Source: Pseudomonadota bacterium (GTDB lineage Bacteria > Pseudomonadota > Alphaproteobacteria > Rhizobiales > Hyphomicrobiaceae). From it: DNA of 40,437 nt. Location: NCBI GenBank assembly GCA_018242255.1, contig JAFECH010000363.1:1-40437 (forward strand), read 5' to 3'. Shown piece by piece: positions 8,893-40,437 of this stretch (position 1 is its first letter; every line of letters starts with the position of its first letter). Under the pieces are notes generated by a model. That model did not search any database. It was not told where the DNA came from and saw nothing but the letters and a program-made list of their open reading frames with translations. The translations under genes and the position numbers were made by a program.

Positions 8893-11217
8893 ATGTTCCG
8901 TATTCAGCGAATGCAGCTGCTCGGCGCAGCTGCAACGACCGTCCTTTTGTTGGGATCGCAGACTGATGAGAGCCTCGCGCAGGAAGCTCCAAGGGAAGAA
9001 AAATCGATGCCGCCTGTCGTGGTGCAGCAGAAAAACTTTGAGAAGAAGCGCGCATCGGCGAAAGCGCAGGCGGCTATGGAACGGAGTAGTGAAAGCAACA
9101 AGGGACAATCGTCGCCTCAGCAATCGGTTCCGGTCGCTATGCCGATCGACATGGCAAGCGATGTGAACAACACGAAAAGTCTGGCCGAACCCCTTAACGC
9201 CGCACGTCTTTCACGTAAGCAGATTCAGTCGCAGCTTCCGAGCACGAGCGATACGGCTCAGCTTTTGACGAAGGTCCCCGGCGTCAGCGTCTACACGTCC
9301 GGCGGCATTTCAAGCCTGCCCGTGATCAACGGTCTCAACGGTGACCGGGTGAAGGTGTTGGTCAACGGCATGGTGATTTCACCAGCGTGCACCAATCAGA
9401 TGAACCCGCCGCTTTCTTATATAGATCCCTCGCAAGTTGCGTCGGCGGAGGTACTCGCAGGCGTGACGCCAGTCAGCAAGGGCGGTGACAGCCTTGGCGG
9501 AACTGTGATCGTCGAATCCCGCCCGCCCGAATTTGCAGAGGCGGATCAGGGTGTGCGCACGTCGGGAAGTATTTCCGGGTTCTACCGCAGCAACGGCGAC
9601 GGTGTTTCGACCGCAGTTCACGCTGAAGCAGCAACGCAAAACGTCAACCTCGGTTACTCCGGCACCTGGACGAAAGCCGATGATTACGCTCGCGGCGACG
9701 ATGGGCCCATCGTCCGCTCGACGCTGTATCAAGCTTACAATCATGCTCTAACACTCGGCATAAGGAACGGTGCCGACCTGTTCACATTCCAGGGGATCTA
9801 CGCCTCGGTACCTTACCAAGGCTTCGTGAACCAGCGTATGGACATGGTCGACAACGACGCTTGGCTCTTCAACCTGCGCTCTCTCACGCACCATGATTGG
9901 GGCACGCTGGATTTTCGCGCCTACTACCACCAGACCCAGCATCGGATGGATATGTTGGCGGACAAGTCTGGTGTCATGCCGATGAACGTCGATGGCGCTG
10001 ATGCCGGCTACTCGGTCAAAGCTGAAATCCCGCTGACAACCGTCGACATCCTGCGGGTTGGCAACGAGTTTCACCGCCAAACGCTGAATGACTGGTGGCC
10101 TGCCGTTGCCGGCATGGCGCCGATGATGGGACCGAATAACTTCATCGACATCAATCACGGAACACGTCAGCGGCTCGGTACATTCGCCGAATGGGAGCAT
10201 CGTTGGGATGGCGCATGGAGCTCTTTGATTGGGCTTCGCAACGATATGGTCTGGATGAATACCGGCGATGTTCACGGCTACAGCGGCATGTATGCCGCCG
10301 ACGCAGCGTCCTTCAACGCGCAAGATCATGCTCGCACTGACGCCAACTTTGACGTAACGGTGCTGACTCGCTATGAACCAACTGCGAATGAAACCTACGA
10401 AATAGGCTATGCCCGCAAGACACGCTCACCAAATCTCTATGAGCGCTACGCTTGGAGCACAGGCAACATGGCCGCCGATATGATCGGCTGGTATGGCGAC
10501 GCAAACGGCTATGTTGGCAATCTCGACCTGAAGCCCGAGACCGGAAACACCGTCAGCTTCACGGCAGGATGGCACGATCGCACGCGAAGTGCCTGGGACA
10601 TCAAAGTTACGCCTTACTACACCTACGTTCAGGACTACATCGACGCCAATTTTCTAAAATCGCAAAGCGGTATGGGAGGAATGAGCATGGGCGGCATGGG
10701 GATGTCGTCCAGCGAGTTCGTGACATTGCAGTTCGCCAACCACGCCGCACAACTCTATGGTGTCAACGTATCTGGCAGCCTCGATTTGGGGAATAGCCCG
10801 GTCTACGGCCAATTCGGACTTTCCGGCATCATTGGCTACGTTAATGGCGAGAACCTCGACACCGGTGACACGCTTTATCATATGATGCCACTCAATGCTC
10901 AGTTGACGTTGAGCCATCGACTTGGCAACTGGTCGAACGCCGTACTGCTGACGATGGTCAACGCGAAGGATGACGTTAACGAGCTTCGACACGAGCCAAC
11001 TACGCCGGGCTACGCACTTGTCGATTTGCGTTCCAGTTATCAGTGGGAAAACGTCCGCTTTGATTTCGGGATCTCAAATCTCTTCGACAAGCTCTATTAC
11101 CCTCCGCTGGGTGGCGTTGATTGGGCCGATTATGCTGCAGAGGGAGAGACTGGCCTAATATCGCCTGTACCCGGACAAGGGCGATCGTTCGACGCAGGCG
11201 TCACCGTCACCTTTTAG
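8893..11217 (+). CDS. TonB-dependent copper receptor, OprC-like
   Basis: A 774-residue outer-membrane receptor. A signal peptide (about residues 1-30, ending SLAQ) is followed by a charged coiled stretch (30-75). The plug domain follows (TAQLLTKVPGVSVYTSGG...GLNGDRVKVLVNGM...SLGGTVIVESR), then a 22-strand-type barrel ending in VTF with terminal Phe. It resembles the TonB-copper receptor family (OprC/NosA). A Met-rich extracellular stretch lies at 594-604, with five Met in 11 residues; other Met clusters are HRMDMLADKSGVMPM and GMAPMMGPNN. These suit Cu(I) binding. The DUF2946 partner precedes it and a strong terminator follows. Copper need is plausible for cytochrome oxidase or denitrification enzymes. 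Confidence 0.92.
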   Translation: MFRIQRMQLLGAAATTVLLLGSQTDESLAQEAPREEKSMPPVVVQQKNFEKKRASAKAQAAMERSSESNKGQSSPQQSVPVAMPIDMASDVNNTKSLAEPLNAARLSRKQIQSQLPSTSDTAQLLTKVPGVSVYTSGGISSLPVINGLNGDRVKVLVNGMVISPACTNQMNPPLSYIDPSQVASAEVLAGVTPVSKGGDSLGGTVIVESRPPEFAEADQGVRTSGSISGFYRSNGDGVSTAVHAEAATQNVNLGYSGTWTKADDYARGDDGPIVRSTLYQAYNHALTLGIRNGADLFTFQGIYASVPYQGFVNQRMDMVDNDAWLFNLRSLTHHDWGTLDFRAYYHQTQHRMDMLADKSGVMPMNVDGADAGYSVKAEIPLTTVDILRVGNEFHRQTLNDWWPAVAGMAPMMGPNNFIDINHGTRQRLGTFAEWEHRWDGAWSSLIGLRNDMVWMNTGDVHGYSGMYAADAASFNAQDHARTDANFDVTVLTRYEPTANETYEIGYARKTRSPNLYERYAWSTGNMAADMIGWYGDANGYVGNLDLKPETGNTVSFTAGWHDRTRSAWDIKVTPYYTYVQDYIDANFLKSQSGMGGMSMGGMGMSSSEFVTLQFANHAAQLYGVNVSGSLDLGNSPVYGQFGLSGIIGYVNGENLDTGDTLYHMMPLNAQLTLSHRLGNWSNAVLLTMVNAKDDVNELRHEPTTPGYALVDLRSSYQWENVRFDFGISNLFDKLYYPPLGGVDWADYAAEGETGLISPVPGQGRSFDAGVTVTF

Positions 11218-30479: not shown

Positions 30480-31466
30480 CTATGTGGTACGGATGCCATC
30501 GAGATGCTGGCTGGCGCAATCAATTATGCGGGCTGCGTCGCCGACCATTCGATCGACGATTTTTCCGACGGGTTCGATTTGATCGATCAAACCCACAACT
30601 TCTCCAACAAACGTGTTGCTCTCGTCTGGGTCACCCTCTGTCCAAGCTCGTTGATATTTGGGCGCCACCTCGTCGGCAGCGGCCCTCAGTTCCTCCTCGC
30701 GGCCCTGCCAGCGCTCGATGAATCGGTTTTTGAGTACTCGCGCGGTATAACGCGACGGCCAGTCAAGCTTGCGCGCCAGATCCATAACCTGGGATCGAAC
30801 AGTATCGTCTCCAGTCGCCCCAACCGCCACTGCATGCATGCGTGCGCTTACGTTTGCTTCCTGGGACGCCCAAAATCGCGATCCCATGACAACACCGTCG
30901 GCGCCCAACATAAGAGCAGCCGCAATACCCCGGCCATCGGCCACCCCTCCCGCCGCACATAGAAGCACGTCCGGAGAGTGGTTAGCGATGACGTCGGCGA
31001 CTTCTGGAATGAGGGCGAACGTGCCGCGCATTTCTCCGTGCCCCCCTGCTTCGGAGCCCTGTGCCACGATAATGTCCGCGCCACAATTGAGCGCGCGGAG
31101 TGCATCTTTTCGTGTCTGAATTTGGCATATAAGCAGAACCCCGCGACTTTTGATGCGCGCGGCAAAGGGTGCGGGATCGTCGAACGATAAGAATATCGCT
31201 TTGGGGTTACGGGCCAGAGCGACGTCTAGAATTGCCGGCTGTCTGCGCAAGGACCACGTTATGAAGCCGCAGCCAACCGGCCGATTTCCTGCGACATCGA
31301 ATTCGCGCGTGAGCCAGTCGGCGTCGCCATACCCGCCACCAATCAGTCCAAGTGCACCTGCGTCAGATATCGCTGCCGCAAGCCGCCCTCCAGCGGCGAA
31401 CGCCATCGGTGCTCCAATGATCGGATGACGCAACCCGAGCCGCTCCGTCAATCGCGTTCTCAGCAT
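30480..31466 (-). CDS. Nitronate monooxygenase family FMN enzyme
   Basis: A 328-residue TIM-barrel flavoprotein of the 2-nitropropane dioxygenase/nitronate monooxygenase family. It has the FMN-binding start LRHPIIGAPMAFAAGGRLAA, a glycine-rich GALGLIGGGYG, the catalytic-type His143 in GSEAGGHGEMRG, and the phosphate-binding strand CAAGGVADGRGIAAALMLGADGVVMGSRF. Such enzymes oxidise alkyl nitronates (for example propionate-3-nitronate) to carbonyls and nitrite; some family members differ in substrate. ATG 31466 has GGAG six bases upstream and is preferred over ATG 31478. It lies 21 bases downstream of the NsrR-like gene, so both are probably transcribed from the NsrR-site promoter, which would link it to nitrosative stress. 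Confidence 0.88.
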   Translation of the reverse strand: MLRTRLTERLGLRHPIIGAPMAFAAGGRLAAAISDAGALGLIGGGYGDADWLTREFDVAGNRPVGCGFITWSLRRQPAILDVALARNPKAIFLSFDDPAPFAARIKSRGVLLICQIQTRKDALRALNCGADIIVAQGSEAGGHGEMRGTFALIPEVADVIANHSPDVLLCAAGGVADGRGIAAALMLGADGVVMGSRFWASQEANVSARMHAVAVGATGDDTVRSQVMDLARKLDWPSRYTARVLKNRFIERWQGREEELRAAADEVAPKYQRAWTEGDPDESNTFVGEVVGLIDQIEPVGKIVDRMVGDAARIIDCASQHLDGIRTT

Positions 31467-31487
31467 GTCCAGCTCCATTTCGTGAGC

Positions 31488-31925
31488 TCAATTCGGCGCG
31501 CCATCAAAAATCGCTCGCAAGGCCTTACGGTTGCTCACGAGGTCCGCCAGCGTCCACGAATCCAGCTCGGCGAAATAGGCTGTCAAAGCGCGGCGCAGAA
31601 CGTGTTTCAAACGACAGGCGCCGGTGATGCGACAGGCTTTTTCGGAACCAAAGCATTCGACGATGTCGAAGTCCTCTTCGGTTAGGCGTAGCACTTCGCC
31701 TAATCCTATTTCGGCGGGTGGTTTTCCGAGGCGAAGACCTCCGCCACGACCGCGAATGGCTTCTACAAACCCCAACTGGCTAAGCCGATTCACTACTTTC
31801 ATCAGATGATTTTCGGAAATGCCGTAAGACTGAGAGATTTCAGCAATTGTAGACAAGCGATCGGTCTGCGAACCCAAATACATAAGCACTCGGAGCGCAT
31901 AGTCCGACATTAGAGTCAATCGCAT
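31488..31925 (-). CDS. nsrR: Rrf2-family NO-responsive regulator, NsrR-like
   Basis: A 145-residue repressor with an N-terminal winged helix (MRLTLMSDYALRVLMYLG, STIAEISQSYGISENHLMKVVNRL, FVEAIRGRGGGLRL). Three Cys in the NsrR/IscR cluster arrangement follow: Cys91, Cys98 and Cys104 (ECFGSEKACRITGACRLK). The ending, TAYFAELDSWTLADLV, is typical of NsrR. NsrR binds an Fe-S cluster and releases DNA when NO reacts with it. ATG 31925 is preceded by GGAGG at six bases, far better than the upstream ATG at 31976, which lies inside the operator. The palindrome at 31968-31990, 42 bases upstream, matches the known NsrR target and implies autoregulation. Confidence 0.88.
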   Translation of the reverse strand: MRLTLMSDYALRVLMYLGSQTDRLSTIAEISQSYGISENHLMKVVNRLSQLGFVEAIRGRGGGLRLGKPPAEIGLGEVLRLTEEDFDIVECFGSEKACRITGACRLKHVLRRALTAYFAELDSWTLADLVSNRKALRAIFDGAPN

Positions 31926-31967
31926 GGGAGCCTCCAAGATTGAAGCTTTAGCTTGTGTAATTGCCAT

Positions 31968-31990
31968 AAGATGCATATTGTATGCATCTT
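31968..31990. promoter_or_regulatory. NsrR-type operator palindrome
   Basis: AAGATGCATA (31968-31977), TTG spacer and TATGCATCTT (31981-31990) form a perfect 10+3+10 dyad. The arms AAGATGCAT/ATGCATCTT match the established NsrR consensus. It lies between the NsrR-like and truncated haemoglobin genes and abuts the TATAAT at 31990-31995, so binding would block that promoter. Confidence 0.85.
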
Positions 31991-31995
31991 ATAAT
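31990..31995 (+). promoter_or_regulatory. Consensus -10 box for haemoglobin gene
   Basis: TATAAT is a perfect -10 hexamer whose first base overlaps the NsrR palindrome. A start of transcription near 32002 would rule out the upstream ATGs at 31982 and 31994 and favour translation from 32009 or 32021. A good -35 at 17-base spacing is not seen. Confidence 0.6.
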
Positions 31996-32020
31996 GGCAA
32001 CCAGAGAGATGGTGTGTTGC

Positions 32021-32458
32021 ATGCTAAGCGAGGAAGAGAACGCAGCGTCCGAGGCACAACGAGCGGCGAAGAGCAAGAGGCTCGCTTATGAGCTCGTTGG
32101 CGGAGAAGACGGGATTCGCCGGCTCGTAGAAGAATTCTACGATATTGTGGAAAAAGAGCCGGCAGGACGCGTACTGCACATCCTACATTTGCGTGGTCAC
32201 GGTATTCCGCATGCGCGCATTGAGCAATTTCATTTCCTTTCAGGATTCCTCGGCGGCCCACGGCTTTACGTCGAAAGGTACGGTCACTCGGACGTGCGTC
32301 AAATGCATGAGCACGTTGAAATTGATTCCGAAGCGCGAGACGCATGGCTCAAATGTATGTCGATGGCGATTGATCGGACCGGAATTGATGCCGATGTTAA
32401 GCAGCAGCTAATGACGAATTTCACGCGCGTTGCGATGATGTTGAGGAATAGGGACTGA
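32021..32458 (+). CDS. Group II truncated haemoglobin
   Basis: A 145-residue small globin. The fold is recognisable from GGEDGIRRLVEEFYDIVEKEP (helix B with Tyr40 at B10), FHFLSGFLGGPRLYVERYGH (helix E to F), proximal His96 in VRQMHEHVEID, and Trp109 (G8) in RDAWLKCMSMAID. These are group II (TrHbO-type) features. Such globins bind O2 and NO and often take part in NO or peroxide detoxification. The NsrR operator directly upstream strongly supports an NO role. ATG 32021 is preferred because the likely transcript starts near 32002; ATG 32009 is possible. The N-terminal about 20 residues are charged and outside the fold. Confidence 0.87.
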   Translation: MLSEEENAASEAQRAAKSKRLAYELVGGEDGIRRLVEEFYDIVEKEPAGRVLHILHLRGHGIPHARIEQFHFLSGFLGGPRLYVERYGHSDVRQMHEHVEIDSEARDAWLKCMSMAIDRTGIDADVKQQLMTNFTRVAMMLRNRD

Positions 32459-33637: not shown

Positions 33638-33922
33638 ATGCAAAAGCGCGTCGAAGATCCGCGTATCCGAAAAATGTTCCACGGCGACAGAAACTGGGCC
33701 TTTGTCGCCGTGGCCGTCCTTTGGACGCTCTACGGCTTCGTGTTCTACGAAGTGAAAGATCTCACCGGCTCTCAGGCTGCGACAGTTGTTCTAGGCGTTT
33801 TTGGCGCGCTGGTTCTGCTGTTCAACAGCGCGTCTATTCTGGCGATGATCTACCACCTCAATGAGGAGCGAGAAGAGATATATGGCCTCGATATTCACTA
33901 TCTCGACGCTCGAAAACAGTGA
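33638..33922 (+). CDS. Small two-helix membrane protein of permease operon
   Basis: A 94-residue protein with two hydrophobic helices (about 20-38 FVAVAVLWTLYGFVFYEV and 47-70 VVLGVFGALVLLFNSASILAMIYH). Both ends are charged, with an N-terminal KRVEDPRIRKMFHGDRNWA and a C-terminal EEREEIYGLDIHYLDARKQ. I know no named family. AGGGAA lies seven bases before ATG 33638. It is the first of four closely packed genes ending in an APC permease and lies upstream of mgsABC-gmaS. An accessory role in the transporter is inferred from this packing, as for small subunits that partner some sodium-solute symporters. Confidence 0.75.
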   Translation: MQKRVEDPRIRKMFHGDRNWAFVAVAVLWTLYGFVFYEVKDLTGSQAATVVLGVFGALVLLFNSASILAMIYHLNEEREEIYGLDIHYLDARKQ

Positions 33923-33933
33923 GGCAGAGCACA

Positions 33934-34329
33934 ATGGCAAAAGAAATTTATGTGCCGCCGAAGCAGTCCGCATTCGGTCAATTATTTGACAGCCTATTTT
34001 TGCTGGGGCTTGTTCTTGTCGCACTGTTCGCACCGCTTTTCCTCAAGCTCGCCGGCGGTGGAAAGATCGATATCCCTGTACAAGACAAGTCGACATGGGA
34101 GGGTTTGGGTCAAACCGCTCAACAGGCCGCTCAATGGGTGAAGCTTGGCTTTACGCCGGAAAGCGCCAGCTCAATCATTACGTCGCGCTTCGATTACTCC
34201 TTCAACCCCGTCGAACTTGCTGTCACGATTCTCGTCATAGTTGGCTATTTTGCGCTGCTTTTCGCTTTTTCGCGAAGTGAGTACCGCGAAGTGATCGACG
34301 AGCGCTTTGGCAGGAGGTCGGAGCAATGA
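33934..34329 (+). CDS. Membrane protein of permease operon, unknown
   Basis: A 131-residue protein with two hydrophobic helices (about 17-37 LFLLGLVLVALFAPLFLKLA and 94-113 AVTILVIVGYFALLFAFSR). They flank a soluble loop of about 55 residues (IDIPVQDKSTWEGLGQTAQQ, then AAQWVKLGFTPES). No family is recognised. ATG 33934 follows GAGGCAGAG and starts 11 bases after the previous stop; its own stop overlaps the next start (ATGA). The loop between helices could face the periplasm and help substrate capture, which is speculation. Confidence 0.73.
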   Translation: MAKEIYVPPKQSAFGQLFDSLFLLGLVLVALFAPLFLKLAGGGKIDIPVQDKSTWEGLGQTAQQAAQWVKLGFTPESASSIITSRFDYSFNPVELAVTILVIVGYFALLFAFSRSEYREVIDERFGRRSEQ

Positions 34330-34511
34330 ACCAATTTCAGATGCTGGAATATGCAGCTTGGGCGCTCTCGGCCGTTCTTGGCTTGTGGATGCTGTTGGAC
34401 ATGATCAAGACAAACAGAACCTACGACGAAGACCTTCTAACGTCGTCGAAGGAAGGTCAAATCGACGACGCGCTAGTCATCGATCCGCCGCACCAGGGGG
34501 GACACAAATGA
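34326..34511 (+). CDS. 61-residue single-span protein of permease operon
   Basis: A 61-residue product with one hydrophobic helix (about residues 8-27, EYAAWALSAVLGLWMLLDMI) and an acidic, soluble C-terminal half (TYDEDLLTSSKEGQIDDALV). It overlaps the preceding gene by ATGA and the permease by ATGA, so three genes are translationally coupled. The architecture is that of a small regulatory or stabilising subunit. No family is recognised. Confidence 0.75.
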   Translation: MNQFQMLEYAAWALSAVLGLWMLLDMIKTNRTYDEDLLTSSKEGQIDDALVIDPPHQGGHK

Positions 34512-35893
34512 CCCAGACGACAGCAATTCATGGAGAGAAGATCTCACTGCTGCGCGTTCTCGGGCCGGCCCATGTGTGGGCGCTCGGCGTCGGCATCGTG
34601 CTCGTTGGTGAATTCATGGGATGGAATTTCGCCGTAGGAAAAGGCGGTGCCGTTGCCGCGCTCATCGCGTGCTGGGTGGCGGGATTGCTCTATACTTGCG
34701 TCGCGATGATTGACTCCGAAGTCACTTCCACGGTCGCGGCAGCAGGTGGACAATACGCGCAGGCAAAACATATCGTCGGCCCGCTCATGGCGTTCAACGT
34801 CGGGCTTTATCTCGTTTTCGCGTACACCATGCTCGAAGCGGCGAATGCCATAACGCTCGGCTATCTCGTGCAAACGGTCGGTACAATGGCGGGCTTTGCC
34901 GACGTGCACGATAAGCCTTTCATAGTGCTGACGATCATGTTTCTCGCTTGGTTGAACTACCGTGGTGTCTATGCGACGCTGACGCTCAACCTTGTGCTTA
35001 CCGCAATCGCATTCAGTGCAGTGGTGATTCTTTTCGCGGCCACCAAGCCCTGGACGCACGACATGCTCAACCATCAAGCCTTCCTCAATGGCCTGCCTTA
35101 CGGTTGGGTTGGCGTGATTGCGTCACTACATTTCGGGCTTTGGTACTACCTCGGCATCGAAGGCACATGTCAGGCGGCAGAGGAGGTTCGATCTCCAGCG
35201 CGATCGTTGCCGCTCGGAACGATGACTGGAATGATCACTCTGCTGATCGCAGCGACTATGACGTGGTATGTGTGCTCGGGGCTGATGCCTTGGGAATATC
35301 TCGGGCAGGCCACAACCCCGCTCTTTGATGCTGCGCGCTTGACAGGATCCGCGCCGTTGATGGTTCTTCTGTTCGTAGGAACCGTCTTCTCCACTCTTGC
35401 TTCGGCGAACGGCTGCATCAACGATGCATCGCGCGCCTGGTTCTCGATGGGACGAGACAGATATCTGCCCACTTGGTTTGGAGCAGTTCATCCGAAGAAC
35501 CGTACGCCTTATCGTTCCATCGTGTTCTTGGTTCCGGTCGCCGTTATTTTTGCTTACTTCGCGCCGTTGGACCAGGTCATCACTTTCTCAATTCTGTCGG
35601 GGCTATTGGGATACACGTACATGTCCCTCAATGTCATGATATTTCGGAGAAAGTGGCCGCTAAATACCATTCGGCGTGGATATATCCATCCCTTCCATCC
35701 ATTGCCCGCTTTGGTATTGCTCTTCCTTTGTTCCGTGACTTATTTTGCGGTCTTTCTGGGATATGGAACCCAATTAATAGCTATGATGATCTTCTTTGCG
35801 GTTGCATCTTTGTGGTTTCATTTTCATCGCTACAAATACGTTCGGCGCGGCGATCAATTCACAATGCAATGGCCGAGGCCGGCTGGGTATTGA
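34508..35893 (+). CDS. APC-family permease, ethanolamine-permease-like
   Basis: A 461-residue transporter with about 12 hydrophobic helices. The N-terminal GVGIVLVGEFMGWNFAVGKGG resembles the substrate-binding helix 1 break of amino acid/polyamine/organocation carriers, especially ethanolamine permeases. Other family-like parts are FGLWYYLGIEGTCQAAEEVRSPARSLPLG and NGCINDASRAWFSMGRDRYLP. It probably imports a cationic amine or amino acid by ion-coupled transport. Its place just before mgsABC-gmaS suggests methylamine or a related amine, which is inference. ATG 34508 overlaps the stop of the 61-residue gene. A strong hairpin follows its stop. Confidence 0.9.
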   Translation: MTQTTAIHGEKISLLRVLGPAHVWALGVGIVLVGEFMGWNFAVGKGGAVAALIACWVAGLLYTCVAMIDSEVTSTVAAAGGQYAQAKHIVGPLMAFNVGLYLVFAYTMLEAANAITLGYLVQTVGTMAGFADVHDKPFIVLTIMFLAWLNYRGVYATLTLNLVLTAIAFSAVVILFAATKPWTHDMLNHQAFLNGLPYGWVGVIASLHFGLWYYLGIEGTCQAAEEVRSPARSLPLGTMTGMITLLIAATMTWYVCSGLMPWEYLGQATTPLFDAARLTGSAPLMVLLFVGTVFSTLASANGCINDASRAWFSMGRDRYLPTWFGAVHPKNRTPYRSIVFLVPVAVIFAYFAPLDQVITFSILSGLLGYTYMSLNVMIFRRKWPLNTIRRGYIHPFHPLPALVLLFLCSVTYFAVFLGYGTQLIAMMIFFAVASLWFHFHRYKYVRRGDQFTMQWPRPAGY

Positions 35894-35914
35894 CCTAGAA
35901 TGATTTAGTGTTGG

Positions 35915-35939
35915 AGGCGGGGGATCGCTTCCCCCGCCT
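35915..35939 (+). terminator. Strong hairpin after permease gene
   Basis: AGGCGGGGGA (35915-35924) pairs perfectly with TCCCCCGCCT (35930-35939) around a five-base loop, 21 bases after the permease stop. There is no T run, so it may be a partial terminator or an RNA processing/stability element between the permease and mgs genes. Confidence 0.55.
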
Positions 35940-36173
35940 GTACCTAATGGCACGCCGCATTCGTGGCTGCGACGCAATATCGATGAAAACATAATAAGAC
36001 GCGGCGTTAGCGACAGAAAATGCCGCTGAGTCAATTCCGGCATGCTCGCTGTCATTGCATTGCGAGATAAGTGATCATTCCTTTAAAGAATAAAATGTTC
36101 TTAGCGGTTGACGAACTCAAGGCGTTGCAATACGTCAAATAGGGAATTCCAATTTCAAAAAAGGTTTCTGCAG

Positions 36174-37070
36174 ATGTGCGGAATTGTCGGACTGTTTCTC
36201 AAGAATAATACGCTGGAGCCGAAGCTTGGGGAAATGCTCAGCGTTATGCTCGGTACTATGTGTGATCGTGGTCCCGACTCAGCAGGATTCGCGGTTTATG
36301 GAACTCCTGAAAAAGGGAGAACAAAAATAACGCTGCAATCCGGAGATCCTGAAAAGGATTTTGCCGGTCTCAAACAGGCGGTCGACAAGGAAATCGGAAT
36401 TAAAGCCGAATTGAAGGAAAAGTCGACGCACGCGGTTCTCACGGTTTCTTCTGACAAGGTCGATGCCGTCCGGACATGGCTCAATGAGCATCGGCCTTCA
36501 CTTCGTGTGATGGGTGTCGGCGACTCAATTGAGATCTACAAAGAAGTCGGTTATCCGACGGAAGTTGCAAAGCGTTTCGATCTCAAATCAATGAAGGGTT
36601 CGCACGCGATCGGACATACGCGTATGGCCACCGAGTCAGCGGTGACGACGTTGGGCGCCCATCCATTCTCCACTGGATCGGATCAGTGCCTTGTTCATAA
36701 CGGCTCGTTGTCGAACCACAATGGCATCCGTCGGCAGCTCATCAAGGATGGGATGCGCTTCGAAACGGAAAACGACACCGAAGTAGCTGCCGCTTATCTG
36801 ACCTGGCGAATGAAGCAGGGTCTCAACCTCGGCGAGGCGCTTAACAGCACAATCGATGATCTCGACGGCTTCTTCAACTTCGTCGTGGGCACTAAGGACG
36901 GCTTCGGGGTCGTGCGCGACCCGATCGCGTGCAAGCCAGCGGTGATGGCCGAAACGGATGACTATGTCGCTTTCGGCTCGGAATATCGTGCGCTCGTCAA
37001 TCTGCCCGACATCAACAAGGCGCGCGTATGGGAGCCGGAGCCGGCAACAGTCTATTTTTGGGAACGCTGA
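36174..37070 (+). CDS. mgsA: N-methylglutamate synthase subunit A
   Basis: A 298-residue class II glutamine-amidotransferase (Ntn-hydrolase) subunit. After Met removal, Cys2 (MCGIVGLF) is the nucleophile. Other amidotransferase blocks are RGPDSAGFAVYG (32-43), HTRMATESAVTTLGAHPF, VHNGSLSNHNGIRRQL and ENDTEVAAAYL. In N-methylglutamate synthase this subunit is related to the N-terminal domain of glutamate synthase and is thought to handle the gamma-glutamyl amide (gamma-glutamylmethylamide). The open frame extends upstream, but ATG 36174 gives the obligatory MCGI start and has AAGG nine bases before it. mgsB follows 21 bases later. The mgsABC-gmaS order supports the assignment over other amidotransferases. 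Confidence 0.93.
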   Translation: MCGIVGLFLKNNTLEPKLGEMLSVMLGTMCDRGPDSAGFAVYGTPEKGRTKITLQSGDPEKDFAGLKQAVDKEIGIKAELKEKSTHAVLTVSSDKVDAVRTWLNEHRPSLRVMGVGDSIEIYKEVGYPTEVAKRFDLKSMKGSHAIGHTRMATESAVTTLGAHPFSTGSDQCLVHNGSLSNHNGIRRQLIKDGMRFETENDTEVAAAYLTWRMKQGLNLGEALNSTIDDLDGFFNFVVGTKDGFGVVRDPIACKPAVMAETDDYVAFGSEYRALVNLPDINKARVWEPEPATVYFWER

Positions 37071-37091: not shown

Positions 37092-37778
37092 ATGCGAACA
37101 ATCGATTTAACGAAAAGCAACATTCGGGAACTCAACGAAGAGCTCCATCGACAAGGAGGGGGCGCCAACGAAGATTCTTGGGAGGTACTCAATCCACGCG
37201 GTGCTCACGCCGTCGCGGTTGGCGTCGATGCGCCTATCTCGATCAGCGTGAAGGGAAGCGTCGGTTACTACTGTGGAGGCATGAATAAGCAGGCCCAGGT
37301 TACAGTTCACGGCTCGGCCGGCCCTGGCGTCGCTGAAAACATGATGTCCGGTAAAGTAGTGATCAAAGGCGATGCCAGCCAGTATGCTGGCGCGACCGGC
37401 CGTGGGGGGTTGCTCGTCATCGAGGGCAATGCCTCTTCGCGTTGCGGCATATCGATGAAGGGCATCGATATCGTCGTCAAAGGCAATATCGGACACATGT
37501 CGGCCTTCATGGCACAATCAGGACATCTCGTCGTTTGCGGCGACGCTGGCGACGCGCTTGGTGACTCTCTTTACGAGGCCAAATTGTTCGTGCGCGGAAG
37601 CGTGAAGAGCCTTGGAGCCGATTGCGTAGAAAAGGACATGCGTCCCGAACATCATGCCGCGCTGACCAAACTGCTCAAGGATGCCGGCATCACTGACATC
37701 AAGCCGGACGAGTTCAAGCGCTACGGCTCGGCTCGGAAACTCTACAACTTCAACATCGACAACGCGGATGCCTACTGA
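37092..37778 (+). CDS. mgsB: N-methylglutamate synthase subunit B
   Basis: A 228-residue protein equal to the C-terminal beta-helix (GXGXG) domain of glutamate synthase. Repeated glycine turns are visible: ISVKGSVGYYCGG, VTVHGSAGPGVAENMMSG, VVIKGDASQYAGATGRGG, LVIEGNASSRCG, IVVKGNIGHMSAFMAQSG, LVVCGDAGDALGDSL and LFVRGSVKSLG. The domain is structural, holding the amidotransferase and FMN subunits together. AGAGG lies nine bases before ATG 37092. Its stop overlaps the mgsC start in TGATG, so B and C are translationally coupled. Confidence 0.93.
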   Translation: MRTIDLTKSNIRELNEELHRQGGGANEDSWEVLNPRGAHAVAVGVDAPISISVKGSVGYYCGGMNKQAQVTVHGSAGPGVAENMMSGKVVIKGDASQYAGATGRGGLLVIEGNASSRCGISMKGIDIVVKGNIGHMSAFMAQSGHLVVCGDAGDALGDSLYEAKLFVRGSVKSLGADCVEKDMRPEHHAALTKLLKDAGITDIKPDEFKRYGSARKLYNFNIDNADAY

Positions 37779-39115
37779 TGACTTATCATAATCCCCAGAC
37801 GGTGCCGCGCCAGTCGGCAACATTCGATGATTATGCCCTTTCCGAAATTCGCCGCGCGGCGGCGACGGGCATCTACGATATCCGAGGCGGAGGCTCAAAG
37901 CGGCGTGTGCCGCATTTTGACGATCTTCTCTTCCTGGGTGCGTCCATCTCGCGTTATCCCCTCGAAGGATATCGTGAAAAATGCACGACGAGCGTTACGC
38001 TCGGGACGCGCTTTGCGAAGAAACCGATTGAGCTGAAAATCCCGATTACAATCGCAGGTATGAGCTTTGGCGCTCTTTCGGCAAACGCTAAGGAAGCCCT
38101 GGGTCGAGGCGCTTCAATCGCTGGTACCTCGACGACGACGGGTGACGGCGGAATGACGCCTGAAGAGCGAGGTCAGTCAAAAACGCTGGTGTACCAGTAT
38201 CTGCCGTCGCGCTACGGAATGAACCCTGACGATTTGCGGAAGGCTGATGCAATCGAGGTCGTCGTGGGGCAGGGAGCAAAACCGGGCGGTGGCGGCATGC
38301 TGCTCGGACAGAAAATCTCAGATCGCGTCGCAGAGATGCGCAACCTGCCGAAGGGCATCGACCAGCGCTCCGCCTGTCGACATCCCGACTGGACGGGGCC
38401 AGACGATCTGGAAATCAAGATCCTCGAGCTTCGCGAGATCACAGAATGGGAAAAGCCGATCTATGTAAAGGTCGGCGGCACACGTCCCTATTACGACACG
38501 GCTCTTGCGATCAAAGCGGGTGCCGATGTTGTGGTGCTTGACGGTATGCAGGGTGGCACCGCTGCGACGCAGGAAGTCTTCATCGAAAACGTCGGATTGC
38601 CGACCTTGGCGTGCATACGACCTGCAGTTCAGGCGCTGCAGGATTTGGGCATGCACCGCAAAGTGCAGCTTATCGTTTCGGGCGGGATAAGGACTGGTGC
38701 CGACGCCGCTAAGGCGCTGGCGCTGGGTGCCGACGCCGTTTCGATCGGCATCGCCGCCCTGGCGGCGCTTGGAGATAATGATCCGGCCTTGGACGATGAA
38801 TACCGGAAGCTCGGAACGCGTGCGGGATGCTACGATGATTGGCACGAAGGCCGTGATCCGGCGGGAATTACCACGCAAGATCCCGCTCTATCTCAACGTC
38901 TCGATCCCGTGCGTGCCGGCCGTCGTCTCGCCAATTACCTTAAGGTGATGACGCTCGAAATTCAGACAGTGGCGCGCGCTGCTGGCCATAATCACATTCA
39001 CAATCTTGAACCTGAGGACCTTTGCGCCTTGACGTTGGAAGCGGCCGCCATGGCGCGGGTGCCGCTTGCCGGAACTGACTGGTATCCCGGAAAACCGGGC
39101 GCCTCAGGTTTTTAA
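37778..39115 (+). CDS. mgsC: N-methylglutamate synthase subunit C (FMN domain)
   Basis: A 445-residue FMN-binding barrel related to the synthase domain of GltB. Typical blocks are ITIAGMSFGALSANAKEALGRGA, GDGGMTPEERG, VVGQGAKPGGGGMLLGQKIS, PIYVKVGGTRPYYDTALAIKAGADVVVLDGMQGGTAA and IVSGGIRTGADAAKALALGADAVSIG. It carries out the reductive step giving N-methylglutamate. At the place of the GltB 3Fe-4S ligands the sequence reads RAGCYDDWHEGRDPAGITTQDP, with a single Cys (Cys351), so that cluster is probably absent. The stop/start overlap with mgsB (TGATG) indicates coupled translation. Confidence 0.93.
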   Translation: MTYHNPQTVPRQSATFDDYALSEIRRAAATGIYDIRGGGSKRRVPHFDDLLFLGASISRYPLEGYREKCTTSVTLGTRFAKKPIELKIPITIAGMSFGALSANAKEALGRGASIAGTSTTTGDGGMTPEERGQSKTLVYQYLPSRYGMNPDDLRKADAIEVVVGQGAKPGGGGMLLGQKISDRVAEMRNLPKGIDQRSACRHPDWTGPDDLEIKILELREITEWEKPIYVKVGGTRPYYDTALAIKAGADVVVLDGMQGGTAATQEVFIENVGLPTLACIRPAVQALQDLGMHRKVQLIVSGGIRTGADAAKALALGADAVSIGIAALAALGDNDPALDDEYRKLGTRAGCYDDWHEGRDPAGITTQDPALSQRLDPVRAGRRLANYLKVMTLEIQTVARAAGHNHIHNLEPEDLCALTLEAAAMARVPLAGTDWYPGKPGASGF

Positions 39116-39157
39116 TAGCCAACAACAAAAATAAGGCACGTGAGGAAACACCCAAAA

Positions 39158-40437
39158 TGGCACAAGATATGACTCCGCATGCGCAGATGACGGATTTATC
39201 GGCTCTCGCCAAACAAAACGGCATCCGCTACTTCATGATCTCCTACACCGACCTCTTCGGCTATCAACGGGCAAAGCTCGTTCCCGCGGCGGCGATCGCG
39301 GACATGCAGAAGGACGGTGCAGGTTTCGCCGGCTTCGCGACCTGGTTGGATTTGACGCCGGCCCATCCGGATCTCTTCGCGGTGCCGGATCCAGCGTCCT
39401 TTATTCAATTGCCATGGAATCGCGAGGTTGGCTGGGTTGCCGCCGATCTCGTTATGGATGACAAGCCTGTCGCTCAGGCGCCGCGCGTGGTCCTCAAAAA
39501 CGTCATGAAGCAAGCTGCGGAAAAGGGGCTGTACGTCAAGACCGGCGTTGAGTGTGAGTTCTTCCTGACCAAACCGTGCGGAACCCTGGTTTCGGACGAT
39601 GCGGACCGAGCGACGAAGTCTTGTTACGATCAGCAGGCGCTGATGCGCCGGTACGATGTGATCTCTGAAATCTGCGATCACATGCTGGAACTCGGATGGG
39701 GGCCGTATCAGAACGACCACGAAGACGCGAATGGCCAGTTCGAAATGAACTGGAACTTCGACGACAGCCTAGTCACGGCCGACCGGCACGCCTTCTTTAA
39801 GTTCATGGCGCGCTCGATCGCGGAAAAGCACGGGTACCGCGCAACCTTTATGCCGAAACCGTTCCTCGGACTGACGGGCAACGGATGCCACGCGCACATT
39901 TCGGTGTGGGATCAGACGGGCAAGGTCAACAAGTTCTACAATCCGAACGATGAGATCGGACTGTCGGACGAAGGCTATAACTTCCTCGGTGGCATCATGC
40001 GCCACGCCGAGTCTCTTTCGGCCATCACCAACCCGACCGTAAACTCGTATAAGCGCATTAATGCTCCGCGCACGGTGTCCGGCGCGACGTGGGCTCCTAA
40101 CACCGTGACGTGGACGGGAAATAACCGGACGCATATGGTTCGTGTGCCTGGTAAAGGCCGTTTCGAGCTACGCCTTCCGGACGGTGCGGCAAACCCCTAC
40201 CTGCTGCAGGCTGTGATCATCGCGGCCGGCATCAACGGCATCAACCGCAAGGCGGATCCGGGCAAGCGGCTAGATATCGATATGTATCAGCTCGGTCATA
40301 CGGTCACGGATGCGCCGAAGCTGCCGCTCAATCTTTTAGACGCGCTCAGGAATTTCGACAAAGATACGGAACTCAAGGAAATGCTTGGCAATGAATTCGC
40401 CGATGCTTTCGTGAAGCTTAAGACAAGCGAATGGAAT
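39158..40437 (+). CDS. gmaS: Gamma-glutamylmethylamide synthetase, 3' cut
   Basis: The window ends inside this gene: 426 complete codons are present, lacking perhaps 15-20 of the usual about 440. It joins methylamine and L-glutamate, using ATP, to form gamma-glutamylmethylamide. The glutamine-synthetase fold is shown by GVECEFFLT, NDHEDANGQFEMNWNFDD, MPKPFLGLTGNGCHAHISVWD, NPTVNSYKRINAPRTVSGAT and RFELRLPDGAANPYL. These carry the metal and ATP ligands and the glutamate-binding Arg. ATG 39158 is preceded by GAGGAAA. It lies 42 bases after mgsC on the same strand. Context with mgsABC separates it from ordinary glutamine synthetase or PuuA-type enzymes. Confidence 0.93.

Follow-up and report, generated by a model that had tools for sequence, protein, structure and literature searches.

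Does a permease gene that is packed together with three small membrane-protein genes, upstream of mgsABC-gmaS, encode a multi-subunit importer for the N-methylglutamate pathway? The question is raised by a stretch of 40,437 nucleotides (the window; contig JAFECH010000363.1 of assembly GCA_018242255.1) from a soil bacterium of the Hyphomicrobiaceae, for which a first-pass annotation had suggested such an importer of amines. In soil and sea, methylamine commonly serves as a source of nitrogen and carbon, and the genes for its degradation are well studied. The literature examined, which included papers accessible in part only, does not name an importer dedicated to the N-methylglutamate pathway in these Alphaproteobacteria.

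Organization of the Locus

When the open reading frames were checked, the annotated gene lengths, gap and ATGA overlaps of the four-gene block proved exact to the base (Table 1). From mgsA on, the gene order in the window is that of P. aminophilus pAMI6.

Table 1. Features of the window around the permease gene and the methylamine genes.
Feature	Positions	Strand	Remarks
S1	33638..33922	+	94 aa; 11-base gap before S2
S2	33934..34329	+	131 aa; ATGA overlap with S3
S3	34326..34511	+	61 aa; ATGA overlap with the permease gene
APC-superfamily permease	34508..35893	+	461 aa; assigned with Pfam
Gap where relatives hold H5 and H6	35894..36173	.	Both genes missing in the window
mgsA	36174..37070	+	N-methylglutamate synthase subunit; predicted receiving pathway
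mgsB	37092..37778	+	
mgsC	37778..39115	+	
gmaS	39157..40437	+	Gamma-glutamylmethylamide synthetase; cut by the window end

The Small Genes Are Inherited with the Permease Gene

The best 80 of 377 permease relatives represent 79 distinct loci from other genomes, and in 78 of these the S1-S2-S3 trio precedes the permease gene. At the 79th (L012) the contig begins 24 bp before the permease gene, and the start of the L049 contig truncates S1. With start codons picked by script, all three intervals are shorter than 60 bases in 74 of the 78 loci. Small genes without the permease in most genomes, the case that the annotation had named as speaking against it, were not seen: of 398 genomes drawn evenly from the Pseudomonadota, the S2 profile matches 14, and the permease (E at most 1e-60) matches the identical 14. 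The S1 profile, run on a separate draw of 359 genomes, matches 13, all within those 14; the remaining genome (G369) was perhaps not drawn, and S1 was found there by a scan of the locus. S1, S2 and S3 adjoin the permease gene in all 14 drawn genomes. The unit is present in Alpha- and Betaproteobacteria and is found together in every relative examined whose contig extends far enough. Across the 79 loci and the phylum draw, small membrane genes are adjacent to, and co-inherited with, the carrier gene, and a joint function of S1, S2, S3 and the permease, as predicted from these patterns, is well supported.

Short ORFs are plentiful (a 10-kb span contains 83 of 40 aa or longer), and the small genes might be misread ORFs or coincidental neighbours; conservation at the protein level over 28 rows, agreement of the profiles on which genomes they match, and adjacency in each of these genomes refute chance.

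Two Further Genes Complete the Unit

Neighbour clustering revealed two more genes after the permease gene: H5, whose product of ~225 aa is hydrophobic at the N-terminus and continues into a conserved region that looks soluble, and H6, encoding a hydrophobic protein of ~90 aa. We searched 86 stretches with profiles (the window, a second copy from the same genome, the 79 loci and five plasmid loci) and found H5 after the permease gene in 85 and H6 in 84. The window alone is without H5; H6 is missing there and in L061, where the contig stops before the gene would be reached. Among the 398 drawn genomes, H5 matches the same 14 as S2 and the permease; both H5 and H6 follow the permease gene at the permease loci of 12 of the 13 other drawn genomes, and the locus of the 13th (G194) stops at a contig end. 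The usual unit is therefore six genes, S1-S2-S3-permease-H5-H6. The annotation had counted three dedicated small partners, and these do go with the permease, but the usual number of unnamed partners is five.

Of 22 plasmid records with a match, five were opened (Paracoccus twice, Pseudohalocynthiibacter, Aminobacter, Pararhizobium). In each the six adjacent genes are annotated, with all five partners of the permease called "hypothetical protein". DUF5683 and DUF6677 were considered for H6 and not accepted, the matches being weak (best E 0.00011, 22.7 versus 26.7 bits).

The Unit Follows the N-Methylglutamate Pathway

At a threshold of E at most 1e-100, mgsC was found in 44 of the 398 genomes, including all 14 with the unit (p = 5e-15, hypergeometric; the value is overstated, related genomes not being independent). 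Thus the unit occurs with the mgs/gmaS pathway in 14 of 14 drawn genomes; in 13 of them, unit and mgsC share a contig and are no more than 18 kb apart, and in G194 the contigs differ. The remaining 30 mgsC genomes are without the unit, which indicates that the pathway does not need it.

Of the 79 loci, 35 have mgs genes in the retrieved flanking sequence, which spans up to 10 kb: 32 with a strong mgsC match and three more (L074, L082, L083) with weaker mgsA and mgsB. These counts are from match scores; neighbour clustering overcalled mgs in L041. For the other 44 loci, 43 genomes were searched (that of L067 was left out) and 41 have mgsC elsewhere; in the two others, those of L041 and L049 (the latter a 2.7 Mb MAG), mgsC was not found despite the unit. 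The link to mgs/gmaS drawn by the annotation holds in that the pathway genes are in the same genomes, but adjacency is common rather than obligatory. In the 32 loci with strong mgsC, the gene is upstream of the unit in 13 and downstream in 19, on the same strand in 16 and on the opposite strand in 16. These mixed positions and strands show that the linkage is not one frozen block, and a unit that stands beside the pathway in many arrangements more likely serves it than is a passenger. On the permease tree the mgs label requires 18 changes, against 26.9 in shuffles (L041 was wrongly labelled mgs in this count, and L022 was left out for its split permease ORF). In the assembled sequence of L022, a MAG, an in-frame TAG at 11150-11152 interrupts the permease gene.

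In P. aminophilus the six-gene unit of pAMI6 adjoins mgsABC-gmaS and starts some 640 bases from mgsA on the opposite strand. The accessible part of the P. aminophilus paper gives mgsABC-gmaS as pAMI6p108-105 and does not mention the six-gene unit. In Methyloversatilis universalis FAM5, amino-acid permeases are among the methylamine-responsive genes, their identity not being given in the part of the paper available (PMC5023235).

Family and Pocket of the Permease

The permease is a member of the APC superfamily (Pfam AA_permease, 110.4 versus 24.6 bits; AA_permease_2, 95.6 versus 27 bits) and matches ordinary carriers across nearly its full length. The nearest named NCBIfam model, likewise matched over nearly the full length, is the equivalog TIGR00908 for the ethanolamine permease family (APC superfamily, TC 2.A.3). 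It is the best model in four copies, with scores of 171.2 bits for the window permease, less than half of the curated cut-off of 381.75 bits, and of 174.1, 186.3 and 182.9 bits for three relatives, none of which reaches the cut-off.

By sequence, the closest solved structures are those of GkApcT, a bacterial CAT homologue (PDB 5oqt and 6f34, E about 1e-25). According to the accessible text on GkApcT, the backbone amides of Thr43 and Gly44 in TM1 hold the substrate carboxylate, carbonyls of TM6 mainly hold the substrate amine, Glu115 has a proton-coupling role and Lys191 replaces the second sodium (PMC5803215). In a distant alignment, Thr43-Gly44 of GkApcT corresponds to Val33-Gly34 of the permease and Gly42 is without a counterpart; the Glu35 that follows is invariant in 28 permease sequences. 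In the same alignment Phe231 becomes Trp212, Asp237 becomes Glu218, Glu115 becomes Ala105 and Lys191 becomes Ala168. The TM3 proton-coupling Glu of CAT/SLC7-like carriers is thus absent, Ala105 being invariant in the 28 sequences, a provisional assignment given the distance of the alignment. Such a pocket, its carboxylate site altered and an acid added, would fit a small cation without a carboxylate, and we infer that the substrate is a small amine of this kind. Another APC permease of the window genome (L003) has the TM1 form GVGxVxxGxxxGWN in common with the permease, but carries His in place of the invariant Glu35, and no small partners are present in its fetched flanks.

Which amine is transported is less certain. 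At odds that are clearly lower than those of methylammonium, the substrate may instead be some other compound from this niche, be it dimethylamine, trimethylamine, TMAO, ethanolamine or a pathway-linked amino acid. The nearest named model is indeed an ethanolamine permease, though at 171.2 versus 381.75 bits, the second copy in the window genome is not beside mgs, and mgsC was not found in the genomes of L041 and L049; against these observations stands the near-complete association with mgsC. Four loci (L052, L054, L064, L073) may also point to other substrates. In these a glutamine-synthetase-like ORF (gmaS score 94-100 bits), starting at 7.3-7.5 kb, lies before S1; mgs is not in the locus, and mgsC is elsewhere in the genomes. 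In L092 a glutamine-synthetase-family gene distantly similar to gmaS (9497-10849) lies before the six-gene unit. In the several rhizobia with a gmaS-like gene before the unit, a different amine may be glutamylated. For TMAO there is the precedent of Methylocella silvestris TmoP, which Zhu et al. are said to have described in 2014 as an APC-superfamily TMAO permease. We considered TmoP as the identity of the window permease; a better candidate for TmoP is the 601-aa APC permease of pAMI6, which lies one hypothetical gene from the gene that gene order marks as tmm2 and has no detectable similarity to the window permease.

The Small Proteins: Subunits or Accessory Factors?

Hydropathy predicts two, two and one membrane helices for S1, S2 and S3, respectively. 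Both ends of S1 are predicted from charge counts to be cytoplasmic, and 12 columns are invariant in its 28-row alignment. In S2 the two helices are linked by an acidic loop of ~50 residues that is predicted to be periplasmic, with cytoplasmic tails (charge counts), and 24 columns, including the start Met, are invariant in 28 sequences. S3 has an acidic C-terminal tail, predicted by charge counts to be cytoplasmic, with a conserved L-x-S-S-x-E-G. The annotation could assign the small proteins to no family, and Pfam and NCBIfam name none either (best E 0.08, all under cut-off). The weak matches of S1, S2, S3 and H5 were rejected, as they are under cut-off and differ between relatives, and the single match of the S2 profile to solved structures (E = 1) was taken as chance. 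A literature search, most subscription papers being outside its reach, found no description of S1-S3, H5 or H6 in the text available to it.

Two attempts at structure prediction gave models that were too poor for use. AlphaFold with the permease alone (28 rows) gave pLDDT 49.2 and pTM 0.55. The four genes of L036, chosen as they share one frame, were modelled as one chain (44 partial rows) with pLDDT 51.0 and pTM 0.43, too poor to speak for or against an interface.

It is conceivable, though we think it somewhat unlikely, that the permease transports alone, with the small proteins helping in its insertion, stability or regulation, as MgtS does for MgtA and GkApcT, rather than serving as structural subunits. 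In the published account, as far as accessible, GkApcT stripped of MgtS had similar initial rates and the same melting point, but its total uptake was lower and cholesterol hemisuccinate lost its stabilising effect (PMC5803215). Three other APC permeases of the window genome (L003; L004, with 1.5 kb of upstream flank; L005, with 0.77 kb) lack the trio in their fetched flanks, a point in favour of an accessory role. In L029 and L031 (Hyphomicrobium sulfonivorans S1 and Hyphomicrobium sp. D-2), one trio precedes two tandem permease genes at about 7.1-11.4 kb, which suggests duplication of the permease gene with a shared trio. The ratio is therefore not fixed at the gene level, and one set of small proteins is probably able to serve more than a single copy of the carrier. 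However, dispensable helpers usually vanish in some lineages, whereas only one of the 79 loci, at a contig end, and none of the 14 drawn genomes is without the trio, and S2 keeps its 24 invariant columns.

A Proposed Mechanism of Methylammonium Import

With moderate confidence, we propose from gene content, conservation and pocket that the unit is a dedicated multi-subunit APC-superfamily importer of methylammonium that feeds the N-methylglutamate pathway. Of the importer suggested by the annotation, the association of the small genes with the permease and of the unit with mgs has held, and the number of partners has not, being usually five. The APC-superfamily carrier with its small membrane subunits would import methylammonium, perhaps also other short methylated amines, which GmaS and MgsABC would trap as gamma-glutamylmethylamide and N-methylglutamate. 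Import could be driven by the membrane potential together with trapping by GmaS, a step that uses ATP according to the accessible part of a published study (PMC8292978). The small proteins would bind the permease in the membrane: the single helix of S3 may be packed on the carrier, S2 may cover its outer face through the loop, and S1 would contribute a cytoplasmic tail. The placement of S3 is proposed because the one-helix MgtS packs on TM5 of the APC carrier in the GkApcT-MgtS complex (available text of PMC5803215). In that complex the carrier comes from Geobacillus and MgtS from E. coli, whereas here the genes of three membrane partners stand with the carrier gene.

A bolder version, which we hold to be doubtful, is that the permease represents a new architecture of secondary carrier and works only when assembled with the partners inherited with it, of which there are usually five, including the three small membrane subunits. 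Glu115 and Lys191 of GkApcT align with Ala105 and Ala168, and in a carrier without the proton-coupling Glu and without the lysine that replaces the second sodium, the small subunits might provide the gating or the energy coupling for methylammonium import.

It appears improbable that the unit is instead a sensor or an exporter, for pathway amines or for N-methylglutamate. The conserved soluble-looking region of H5 could signal, and the direction of transport is unreadable from sequence; yet the match of the permease to ordinary carriers spans almost all of its sequence, and beyond the six genes no neighbour cluster exceeds 42 of 85 loci (gmaS), so that no regulator is fixed beside the unit. 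The other large clusters among these 85 loci consist of ORFs that overlie the unit out of frame.

A gene set that follows the N-methylglutamate pathway so closely is a direct candidate for its importer. If the small proteins are true subunits, knowledge of bacterial APC carriers would be extended and up to five unnamed families would gain a function.

Comparison with Known Carriers

Secondary carriers that are encoded with one small membrane partner include MetP-MetS (NSS) and ActP-YjcH (SSS). Each of these has one partner, whereas here three genes of unnamed families precede the carrier gene and two follow it. Small partners of secondary carriers are already known, but we know of no case in which three small membrane genes inherited with the carrier gene stand before it and two more genes follow, and the literature search found no match to this arrangement.

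Pseudomonas sp. C5pp has a gmaS-mgsABC-amt operon with a proposed methylamine carrier, as described in the accessible part of the report (PMC8292978). Both amt and the window unit are linked to the same pathway genes, but the name amt suggests an Amt channel, unlike the APC carrier with small partners found here.

Two Copies of the Unit in the Window Genome

The window copy is the only one among the 86 stretches that is without both H5 and H6. A second, complete unit lies on contig C274 of the same genome and is not beside mgs within the 19 kb read. Its permease is 92% identical to that of the window, and close permeases were found in this genome only on C274 and on C292, the contig of the window. 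H6 and a credible H5 were found in the genome only on C274; two more H5 matches have E of 0.05 and 0.18. In the permease tree, the window copy groups with Hyphomicrobium copies without mgs linkage (8 rows, support 96/94), so that it looks like a C274-type unit that moved beside mgs and lost H5 and H6. The window copy may draw on H5 and H6 of the second copy in trans, or may do without the two.

The two copies differ mainly by silent changes (dN 0.060 and dS 3.3 for the permease, dN 0.105 and dS 1.87 for S3). For S2 and S1, dN is 0.195 and 0.313, respectively, with dS saturated for both, showing that S1 and S2 diverge faster than the permease.

The window genome also holds a second mgsABC-gmaS cluster, on contig C273 (L121), with an mgsC 93% identical to that of the window. 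The ORFs beside this cluster look like sarcosine oxidase by eye and may be mgd. Within the window, a nitronate monooxygenase-like gene and a bacterial globin lie at 30480-32458 together with a 162-aa ORF that has the look of an Rrf2/NsrR-type regulator by eye; this group is a possible nitric-oxide or nitro-compound defence group.
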